Of a stretch of 36,774 nt of DNA, positions 33,946 to 36,774 are shown piece after piece. The stretch's first letter is position 1, and every line of letters starts with the position of its first letter. Location: the NCBI GenBank assembly GCA_035532835.1, contig DATKQG010000098.1, positions 1 to 36,774 of the forward strand. Direction: 5' to 3'. Under the pieces are notes generated by a model. That model ran no database searches and was not told where the DNA came from. It saw only the letters and a list, made by a program, of their open reading frames with translations. Origin of the DNA: Candidatus Dormiibacterota bacterium. Its GTDB lineage: Bacteria > Vulcanimicrobiota > Vulcanimicrobiia > Vulcanimicrobiales > Vulcanimicrobiaceae. The position numbers were made by a program, and so were the translations under genes.

Positions 33946-35574
33946 ATGCTCGAGCATAGCGGCGATCCGCGTATCGACTTCCAATGGGACGTTCCTGCGA
34001 CGTTCAACTTCGCACGCGACGTCATCGACCGGCTCGCGCGGGAAGATCGCGCCGGCCTCATCTTTATCGACGCCCAGGGCGTACGAACGTCCTACACCTT
34101 CGCCCAAATATCCGATGCGTCCATGCGGTACGCCCGCGCGCTTGCGGACAGCAATATCGGCCACGGCGACCGTGTCATCGTTTCGCTTCCGAAGGTTCCG
34201 CAGTGGCTCTTCGTCATGCTCGCACTCGATCGCTTGGGTGCCGTGGCCATTCCGTGCGCGGAGCAATTGCGCGCAAAGGATCTGCTCTTCCGCGCCAATC
34301 ATGCCGGCGCCGTCGCACTCGTTGCCGACCGAAGCAATTACGCCGAAGCCGAGCAGATGCGCGGCGCCGCCAAACAGTTGCAGTCGCTCCTCTTGGTGGG
34401 CGGCAGCGCCGACCGATGGATCGATCTCGACGCACTCGCCGCAAGCGCCGACCCGCTGGCCGGCGTGGAAACGCGCAGCGCCGATTGGGCTTACATCGTC
34501 TATACGAGCGGAACGACCAAAGACCCCAAAGGCGTCGTTCACGATCGCGCGTACACGTTTGCCAAACGCATGCAAGCGCGCTACTGGCTCGATGCGACGC
34601 CGGACGATCTCGTCTGGTCCACCGCTGCCACCGGTTGGGCGAAATCGCTCTGGAACGTGCTGCTCGGCCCGTGGTCGTGCGGTAGCACCATCGTGCTGCA
34701 CGAAGGCGCCTTCGACCCCGCCCAACGACTCGATCTGATCGAGGAACTCGGCGTCACGATTCTCTGCCAAGCGCCCACCGAGTACCGCTTGGAGGCCAAG
34801 CTCGAGGACTTAGCGACGCGCTGGAGGTTCCCCAAACTGCGCCATTGCGTCAGCGCCGGAGAGCCGCTCAATCCAGAAGTGATCGAACGCTGGAAAAGCG
34901 CCTTCGGCCTAACGATTCTCGACGGCTACGGCCAAACCGAGAACTCGCTGCTCGTCGCAAATTTACCGGGTGACGCGGTACGCCCCGGCTCGATGGGCCG
35001 CCCCACGCCCGGACACGACGTACACGTCGTCAATGAAGACGGCGCGATATGCACGCCCGGCGAAACCGGCGACATCGGCCTACGCGGCAATCCTCCAACG
35101 CTCTTCAAAGGCTACCTCCACAGCGACGAAGAGACGCAGCAAAGCTATCGTGGCGAGTGGTACCTCACCGGCGACCGCGCAAGCGTCGACGAAGACGGTT
35201 ATTTCTGGTTCGTCGGACGCGCCGACGACGTTATCAGCTCGGGCGCGTATCGCATCGGTCCGTTCGAAGTCGAGAGCGCGCTGCTCGAACACCCGGCCGT
35301 ATCGGAATCGGCCGTAGTCGGCAGCCCCGACGCGGATCGCGGCAACATCGTCAAAGCGTTCGTCGTCCTGCGCAAGGGCTTCGATCCAAGCGCCGAGCTC
35401 GTGCGAGAATTGCAGGCTCATTGCAAACGCGTCACCGCTCCGTACAAATATCCACGCGAAATCGAATTCGTCGACGAACTTCCGAAAACGCGCTCCGGAA
35501 AAATCCGCCGCGTCGAGCTCCGCCAACGCGAACTCGAACGCAAAGGCGCCAACCGCGCCAGCGGCTTCGTATAA
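33946..35574 (+). CDS. Acyl-CoA synthetase (acetyl/medium-chain type AMP-forming ligase)
   Basis: 542 residues of the ANL superfamily. Core motifs are YTSGTTKDPKGVVHD (P loop), TAATGWAKSLWN, YGQTENS, LTGDRASVDEDGYF, RADDVISSGAYRIGPFEVE (hinge and C-domain), and the catalytic C-terminal Lys in PKTRSGKIRR. The overall pattern is closest by eye to AcsM-type medium-chain or acetyl-CoA synthetase-like ligases; chain length cannot be read off. It activates a carboxylic acid with ATP and CoA. I use ATG 33946, 2 nt after the rocD stop; a TTG at 33940 overlaps that stop. It probably forms an operon with rocD and feeds acyl-CoA into central metabolism. Confidence 0.92.
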   Translation: MLEHSGDPRIDFQWDVPATFNFARDVIDRLAREDRAGLIFIDAQGVRTSYTFAQISDASMRYARALADSNIGHGDRVIVSLPKVPQWLFVMLALDRLGAVAIPCAEQLRAKDLLFRANHAGAVALVADRSNYAEAEQMRGAAKQLQSLLLVGGSADRWIDLDALAASADPLAGVETRSADWAYIVYTSGTTKDPKGVVHDRAYTFAKRMQARYWLDATPDDLVWSTAATGWAKSLWNVLLGPWSCGSTIVLHEGAFDPAQRLDLIEELGVTILCQAPTEYRLEAKLEDLATRWRFPKLRHCVSAGEPLNPEVIERWKSAFGLTILDGYGQTENSLLVANLPGDAVRPGSMGRPTPGHDVHVVNEDGAICTPGETGDIGLRGNPPTLFKGYLHSDEETQQSYRGEWYLTGDRASVDEDGYFWFVGRADDVISSGAYRIGPFEVESALLEHPAVSESAVVGSPDADRGNIVKAFVVLRKGFDPSAELVRELQAHCKRVTAPYKYPREIEFVDELPKTRSGKIRRVELRQRELERKGANRASGFV

Positions 35575-35587
35575 CATCCACCTAACC

Positions 35588-35780
35588 TTTGCGTCTGGTA
35601 CGGCGCGGCGGGGAGCAGTGGTGGGATCGGGAGCGTGCAGTTTTTTCGACCTGGCCCGGAGGGCCATTTCCAAACTTCGTTCTGTCGAAAAAATGCTCGA
35701 GCTAAGAAATTTCATGGATGAAATTTCTTGGCGTCTCCCGATCCCGCCACTGCTCCCCGCCGTGCCGTACCAGACGCGAA
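35588..35780 (+). repeat. Long inverted repeat enclosing two helices; candidate structured RNA or MITE-like element
   Basis: The arms 35591-35633 and 35735-35777 pair over 43 consecutive positions with no gap; 41 are Watson-Crick and two (35605/35763 and 35622/35746) are G-U in plus-strand RNA. Three more pairs, the innermost of them a further G-U, extend the base. Inside, TTTTTTCGAC (35641-35650) pairs with GTCGAAAAAA (35684-35693), capped by TGGCCC-GGA-GGGCCA (35652-35666). A second perfect 12-bp hairpin, AAGAAATTTCAT/ATGAAATTTCTT, is at 35704-35729. The result is a three-way junction. It lies in the only long convergent gap, after the acyl-CoA synthetase gene. No transposase or reverse transcriptase is near. 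Confidence 0.8.
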
Positions 35781-35787
35781 CCCCCAC

Positions 35788-35817
35788 AAAAAAGGCACGG
35801 CGCAAGCCGTGCCTTTT
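35788..35817 (-). terminator. Bidirectional terminator between the M61 peptidase and the long inverted repeat
   Basis: AAAAGGCACGGC (35790-35801) pairs with GCCGTGCCTTTT (35806-35817) around GCAA, a perfect 12-bp stem. On the minus strand it ends with a run of six T (35793-35788), and it lies 18 nt past the M61 stop, so it should terminate that gene. On the plus strand it ends TTTTGCTTT and may also end transcripts that cross the long inverted repeat. Confidence 0.85.
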
Positions 35818-35834: not shown

Positions 35835-36774
35835 CTATTTGCCGGTGAGGGGTTTTGGGATGTCGCTGAGACGATCGGGCGTACCGGGGATACGCACGAG
35901 ATGCGGGTAGCGCGGGCCGCCGTCGTAAGCTACGGAGACTTCGCGATACGTTTGCGTGCGTTCTAGGAGCAAGCGAATCGGCGCGTGCGAGTGCTGCGAT
36001 TCGACGAGCGCGTTGTAAAGCGTGTCGGCCGAATATTGGCGCCCGTTGACGGCGACCACTTTCGTGAGTATCCCCACACCGGCTTTCCATGCTGGAGAGC
36101 CTTGCTTCACGTCGTAAATCGATCCGTCTTTCGCCATGTTTAGGCCGATCGAGTACCAGAAGTTGTCTTTCTTTACCCAATGCTGCGGCTTGTCGGTATA
36201 GACGAGCTTCCATCCATCGGCGGTGAAACCGTCCGGCGGATGTACGCTGATGTCATCAACCCAGGTTTTGAAGAAACCCGCCCAATCGTATGGGAGAATT
36301 TTATTCAAGCCTGCGATGATATCCGCGCGGTTGTAGGTTTTGACGATCGGCCCGGTGTTATGCTGGCCGAAGAACGCGCGCGCGAACGTGTCGAGCGACT
36401 CTTTGTTATCGGTCTTTTCGCGAATGATGCTGTCGGCTTTGAGCCACATCAGTTCGCCTTCGGAGTAGAAATCGACGCGGCGGCGTTCGGCCGTATATCC
36501 GGGTGCGGCTCCGTACAGAAACGGGGCGGAGACCGCCGTGTCGAGCAGCGGGCGCCATAGACGGCCCGGCTCGTTGTCGTAGTAGGCGTAGGTGGCGGCG
36601 ATGTGATCCGGGTAGGTCTTCTGCGCGCGGATACCGTCGCGCCACGACATCACGTTGCCGTAGTACTGGGTCATGCCTTCGTAGACCCAGAGGAGCGAGT
36701 CGTCGTACGGAATCTGCAGATTTTTCTGGTAGAGGCCATCGGGCATGCGATACTTACCGTCCCACGAGTGGTTG
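35835..36774 (-). CDS. M61-family aminopeptidase with C-terminal PDZ (partial; N-terminus beyond window)
   Basis: The minus-strand frame is open from the window edge to TAG at 35835, 313 codons. The first visible residues are NHSWDGKYRMPDG, the end of the M61 zinc motif (HExxH-x-W), so only the second His is inside the window. The family segment LLWVYEGMTQYYGNVM follows, which carries the third ligand Glu. A helical domain (about 60-200) and a PDZ domain (about 205-285; GLNMAKDGSIYDVKQGSPAWKAG, read in parts) complete the C-terminus. Members cleave N-terminal Gly or Ala, or act as PDZ-containing periplasmic peptidases. A terminator follows 18 nt after the stop. Confidence 0.88.
   Translation of the reverse strand, partial: NHSWDGKYRMPDGLYQKNLQIPYDDSLLWVYEGMTQYYGNVMSWRDGIRAQKTYPDHIAATYAYYDNEPGRLWRPLLDTAVSAPFLYGAAPGYTAERRRVDFYSEGELMWLKADSIIREKTDNKESLDTFARAFFGQHNTGPIVKTYNRADIIAGLNKILPYDWAGFFKTWVDDISVHPPDGFTADGWKLVYTDKPQHWVKKDNFWYSIGLNMAKDGSIYDVKQGSPAWKAGVGILTKVVAVNGRQYSADTLYNALVESQHSHAPIRLLLERTQTYREVSVAYDGGPRYPHLVRIPGTPDRLSDIPKPLTGK

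Follow-up and report, generated by a model that had tools for sequence, protein, structure and literature searches.

A dispersed extragenic repeat with a conserved folded core and copy-specific outer stems in a family of Candidatus Eremiobacterota

REP/BIME elements with RAYT are extragenic palindromes that occur in tens of copies at gene ends, avoid promoters, and are landing sites into which IS110-family elements insert (PMC1525189). The repeat described here resembles them in all of these respects. However, REPs are short and have a conserved stem, whereas here a copy-specific stem of ~ 38 bp encloses a conserved core of ~ 105 nt, no conserved palindrome sequence is common to the copies, and the main carriers have no Y1/RAYT gene. 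The repeat is REP-like in placement, not in anatomy. MITEs and PATEs are likewise small, non-coding, dispersed, and palindromic, but the arms of the present repeat are not common to its copies, a clear target duplication was not seen, and its cores are under purifying selection. RNAs with GGA loops (TwoAYGGAY and the CsrB/RsmZ type) share with it the AYGGAY/GGA apical loops and the covarying helices; unlike them, it has no Rfam match at gathering score, is present in ~ 40 dispersed copies, has a long perfect outer stem, and does not track CsrA. Template switching between inverted repeats has the published effects of homogenizing the arms and inverting the spacer or loop, and quasipalindromes homogenized in this way show the coupled arm changes and spacer inversion that we observe (PMC8604942, PMC8794818), although their spacer is usually a few bases whereas ours is a structured core of ~ 105 nt in a dispersed family.

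The window, by which we mean the whole stretch of 36,774 nt that was analyzed, contains one copy at 35588–35780. An earlier note on this DNA had described a long inverted repeat here, with a continuous helix of 43 positions including two G-U pairs and internal helices forming a three-way junction. This was confirmed, with a small correction: as a gap-free stem, the outer helix P1 has 45 positions, consisting of 42 Watson–Crick pairs, three G-T pairs, and no A-C mismatch. Its plus-strand 5′ and 3′ arms (35588–35633 and 35735–35780) are 46 nt each, 93% complementary, and separated by a 101-nt spacer; the 5′ arm is copy-specific, and only its inner 6–8 bp are similar to those of other copies. The conserved core (35634–35734, plus strand) belongs to subfamily i and is 86–95% identical to the other core copies found in this genome by BLAST. 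Within it, P2 (35634–35699, with strands 35634–35650 and 35684–35699) has nearly all of its pairs covarying and bears the hairpin P2a (35652–35666, apical loop CGGAG), which is followed by the conserved segment UUUCCAAACUUCGUUCU (35667–35683, consensus CUUCAAAACUUYGUUYU). This segment could possibly form a small hairpin, AAAC-UUC-GUUU. P3 (35701–35732, apical loop AUGGAU) completes the junction of P1, P2 with P2a, and P3. The predicted plus-strand RNA fold of the hairpin has an energy of −145.4 kcal/mol (z = −17.3), compared with −132.3 (z = −15.6) for minus-strand RNA and −90.2 (z = −16.0) for ssDNA. We regard the fold as far beyond chance since no shuffled sequence equaled it and since dozens of copies show the same structure with covarying pairs.

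The left arm begins 13 nt downstream of the stop codon of a plus-strand AMP-binding gene of the acyl-CoA synthetase type (33946–35574), and a gene of M61-peptidase type (35835–36773, minus strand) converges on the hairpin from the other side. The gap between them is 260 nt, whereas the five other convergent gaps in the window measure 2, −4, 3, 0, and −4 nt by our gene calls, in agreement with the note's statement that they do not exceed 3 nt. The repeat does not have the layout of an intrinsic terminator, a short GC-rich hairpin followed by a T run. That layout is found at 35790–35817, where an ordinary 12-bp bidirectional terminator hairpin adjoins the element and is separate from it.

The window hairpin is one of ~ 40 copies of a repeat family in its own genome (G000, 2.89 Mb in 120 contigs). 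A DNA search recovered nine close core copies, one of them divided between contigs C22 and C65 at their ends, and every intact copy in this genome has its own long stem. Orthologous copies are present in a congener (G001, records DAHUXY01, Candidatus Eremiobacterota); like all assemblies compared, both genomes are metagenome-derived and fragmented. Using home-made covariance models, for which E-values are rough, we obtained hits in 50 of the 99 family genomes (model R1) and in 62 of the 117 class genomes (R2). The R2 matches were confined to one Candidatus Eremiobacterota family, except for two weak ones that belong to a sister family in the same order. A fuller search put the number of matches at 42 in G000, 29 in G001, 13 in G092, nine each in G025 and G074, and one in G008, counts that include a few halves, IS-interrupted copies, or weak hits. 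The family is apparently undescribed: we found nothing in the literature on such repeats in this phylum, and searches both permissive and at gathering score and Rfam gave no credible family and only weak matches, none to a GGA-type family. A phage or plasmid origin was rejected, as the window copy had no match of either kind. Two copies (L204 on G000:C3 and L215 on G001:C9) form a fourth, diverged subfamily whose P2 differs and whose P3 loop is CATGGATG; the left arm of the G001 member now pairs poorly, and this copy is apparently decaying.

Throughout the family, a folded core of ~ 105 bases sits inside a near-perfect outer stem that is specific to the copy. Over 71 matches, 95.7% of cells were paired in the consensus P1–P2(P2a)–P3 structure, and changes on both sides of a pair were seen at 39 of 40 pairs and in 930 cells, which are not independent events; one-sided changes were rare. 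The covariation score was 0.824, as compared with 0.221 after shuffling and at most 0.152 when the pairing partners were slid. Unpaired positions were more conserved than paired ones (0.80 versus 0.64). The P2a apical loop contained GGA in 66 of 69 copies, and the P3 apical loop contained GGA in 59 and CGA in nine of the 69. Beyond these loops, the other strongly conserved stretch is the CUUCAAAACUUYGUUYU segment.

The outer stem behaves differently, as its sequence is peculiar to each copy (median length 38 bp over the 71 matches). That arms are copies of other genomic loci was rejected for one copy, L087, whose arms had no second occurrence in G000 or among 98 relatives. Inverted repeats of comparable length without a core were absent from 246,630 b of G000, where the best was 20 bp, and almost absent from the 734,621 b covered by all fetched loci. 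Deviations from Watson–Crick pairing in the arms were G-T rather than A-C in a ratio of 115:37 (91:19 when the outer eight positions were left out), which bears out, over many copies, the earlier suggestion that G-U pairs hint at plus-strand RNA. In the core, the bias was weak (31:26). It also held in arms for which both neighboring genes are antisense to the element (26:9), and for this reason the G-U bias is not proof of RNA and lends the idea weak support only. Two loci deserve mention here. In L133/L039 (G001:C12), the stem continues for ~ 130–145 bp to the contig end with scattered mismatches, and is either a genuine extended palindrome or an assembly fold-back. At the locus of a weaker core match in G074 (C7, L182:1435–1682), there is a perfect inverted repeat of 24 bp, TGTCATCCTGAGCCTGTCGAAGGA, whose halves lie 200 nt apart.

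We then compared 13 orthologous pairs from G000 and G001, the only two species that this comparison covers. Their cores were identical at 1316 of 1331 positions (98.9%) and their arms at 687 of 801 (85.8%), with ~ 92% identity in the flanking DNA. These identities imply constraint on every core at its own site and rapid change in the stems. The stems nonetheless keep their pairing through coupled changes: 42 were double Watson–Crick changes, 19 of which were of a transversion type that has no path through G-U, compared with 15 single changes that created or removed a G-U pair and ~ 23 that involved other mismatches. In two of the nine copies for which both flanks were resolved (L096/L132 and L102/L134), the core was inverted with respect to both flanks, and in the remaining seven its orientation was the same; this count leaves out several further apparent inversions at contig ends. 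Coupled arm changes and core inversion suggest that the template switching described for inverted repeats elsewhere is also at work in these stems.

Within a genome, the history of a core differs from that of its stem. Paralogues with cores that are 98–99% identical have arms that are unrelated past the inner ~ 6 bp (L086/L090, L194/L198, the L103 pair, and a pair in G092). Among G000 paralogues with 96–99% identical cores, arm similarity was at the level of shuffled sequence except in the borderline case L188/L195, whereas orthologues with equally similar cores share ~ 86% of the arm; L187/L188 gave a hint of common arms that was not convincing. We therefore rejected the idea that stems are inherited along with cores. 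Either a moving core builds or receives new arms, or cores are swapped between sites, and gene conversion limited to the core would give the same pattern as such an exchange. An apparent case of core replacement in situ is L100 (G000:C22) and L213 (G001:C235), in which the flanks are the same, the core subfamily and inner arms differ, and the outer arms are partly alike (14 of 20 positions by eye).

In the same two-species comparison, five or six sites that are filled in G000 are empty in G001 (L087, L099, L188, L189, L193, and L199). The empty sites hold no hairpin and lack most or all of the arms, although several retain 7–20 nt that resemble the outer right arm, in part because this piece overlaps the end of the neighboring gene. 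No consistent target duplication distinguished filled from empty sites; a TAG repeat at one of them corresponds to stop codons. In outgroups, the L087 site has the length of the empty site. Since no other core is more than 88% identical to that of L087, loss of this copy from G001 is as possible as a gain in G000.

Placement was assessed with a simple hexamer gene caller. In G000, 23 copies lie between convergent genes and ten between codirectional ones (seven U+D+ and three U−D−), and none lies in a divergent gap; such promoter gaps are almost never occupied by the repeat. Outside G000, most codirectional copies run antisense, as do 25 of 31 in a mixed set. The nearest stop codon is a median of 30 nt from the edge of the covariance model and the arms extend a median of 32.5 nt past that edge, so that the outer arms reach about to the stop codons of the adjacent genes, and about half of the arms extend into coding sequence. 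Ten neighboring proteins that we checked were metabolic enzymes, peptidases, or a transporter, with no common theme. No reverse transcriptase was among them, which speaks against the retron-like msr/msd fold that the earlier note had entertained. Its proposal of an RNase III site or a 3′ UTR role for a single transcript was too narrow for ~ 40 copies that lie behind unrelated genes in either orientation. The note had named the locus an undescribed structured RNA or a mobile element, with dispersed copies as the test for a MITE and compensatory changes as the test for an RNA. Each half is partly right, as we found both several copies in the genome and covariation across them; a MITE with long terminal repeats, however, does not fit arms that differ from copy to copy and the lack of a clear target duplication. 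As a separate observation, the left flanks of L196 and L202 (G000:C22 and C19) are 97% identical over 70 nt, a likeness due to a local duplication that takes in the end of the upstream gene.

The window copy is one member of a dispersed family of extragenic structured repeats, and on balance we lean toward the view that its stem is kept mainly by template switching and its core by selection. DNA polymerase switching templates at the hairpin would be the main keeper of stem perfection, using either arm as the template for its partner and occasionally inverting the core; selection for pairing would probably add to this upkeep, the stem sequence itself being unselected. The core would be maintained by selection, its folded form being bound by a putative protein that may contact the GGA loops and the CUUCAAAACUUYGUUYU segment. 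This folded form could be RNA made by read-through from a neighboring gene or extruded ssDNA, and the most likely result would be a stable structure at transcript ends that is either ribonuclease-resistant or processed by RNase III. Because copies may face either way relative to codirectional genes, a strand-specific read-through RNA cannot serve all of them, and the near-equal G-U and A-C counts of the core are as compatible with ssDNA or arm copying as with RNA. Template switching alone is insufficient to explain unrelated stems around 99% identical cores. A putative trans-acting process would disperse cores to new sites and replace them at old ones. It is possible, although we put it forward only tentatively, that the folded core alone moves and is enclosed at each site in a newly made perfect inverted repeat of ~ 40 bp, a stem that then evolves through copying templated by the hairpin, with the core free to flip.

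The evidence for dispersal also bears on a selfish, non-autonomous element of MITE or PATE kind, with a core that is recognized by a transposase acting in trans and with copies that are tolerated only behind genes. Many dispersed copies in subfamily bursts, the five or six sites empty in G001, and the avoidance of promoters and coding sequence all suit such an element, yet we find it doubtful: the cores of immobile orthologous copies are constrained relative to their arms (98.9% versus 85.8%), as those of dead selfish copies would not be, terminal repeats are not common to the copies, clear target duplications were not seen, and some of the sites empty in G001 may have arisen by deletion, with a piece of the right arm left over. 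Moreover, a Y1/HUH (RAYT/TnpA-REP) transposase gene was found in only four of 99 genomes and is absent from nearly all carriers, G000, G001, and G026 among them, and mobilization of the REP or IS200/605 type was rejected on these grounds. Rather unlikely, in our view, is a site that acts purely as DNA, an extruded T-shaped cruciform or ssDNA hairpin to which a protein of the chromosome or of replication binds, RNA playing no part. While this would agree with the strong ssDNA fold, the lack of G-U preference in the core, and an invertible core whose orientation is untied to genes, the strand bias of arm mismatches to G-T argues against it, and placement at 3′ ends is more natural for transcript ends.

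The GGA frequencies of the P2a and P3 loops, and a CsrA gene in G000, would be expected of a multi-copy small RNA that titrates a CsrA/RsmA-like protein through its apical loops. The loops fit but presence of the repeat does not track CsrA, which is common in the family, including many genomes without the repeat (for example, genus g24), and was not found in several carriers, including G001 (~ 29 copies), G026, G028, G087, and G009; nor is any promoter conserved outside the core. We rejected this sponge as very unlikely. We give slightly less credence still to the reading that cores land in pre-existing long hairpins, such as terminators, that supply the copy-specific stems. Stems that differ even around 99% identical cores, and the L100/L213 locus, at which the two species differ in core subfamily but have outer arms that are partly alike, are what such landing would produce, but the empty sites are without hairpins and the survey of coreless inverted repeats described above found no such palindromes to insert into.

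Returning to the reading that we favor, a stem kept mainly by template switching around a selected core, the repeat is of interest beyond its apparent absence from earlier descriptions of an entire bacterial family whose genomes hold tens of copies each. One molecule separates structure from sequence, in that the core keeps its sequence and the stem keeps only its pairing, and this separation makes the debated upkeep of long hairpins by template switching directly testable in bacteria, with two sister species, 13 orthologous stems, and 42 coupled changes as a testbed. It is also a warning that perfect covariation need not mean selection on RNA. The repeat probably accounts for many of the contig breaks in these assemblies.

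Finally, the repeat is an identified landing site of an IS110-family element (L231, G000:C27), which is inserted inside the GGA apical loops. Three G000 copies (L201, L202, and L203) carry the insertion in the P3 loop with the junction GCAG^ATACC, and copies of G000 and G001 (L205, L216, and L219) carry it in the P2a loop. Contig ends at the insertions suggest that the element is itself present in multiple copies.
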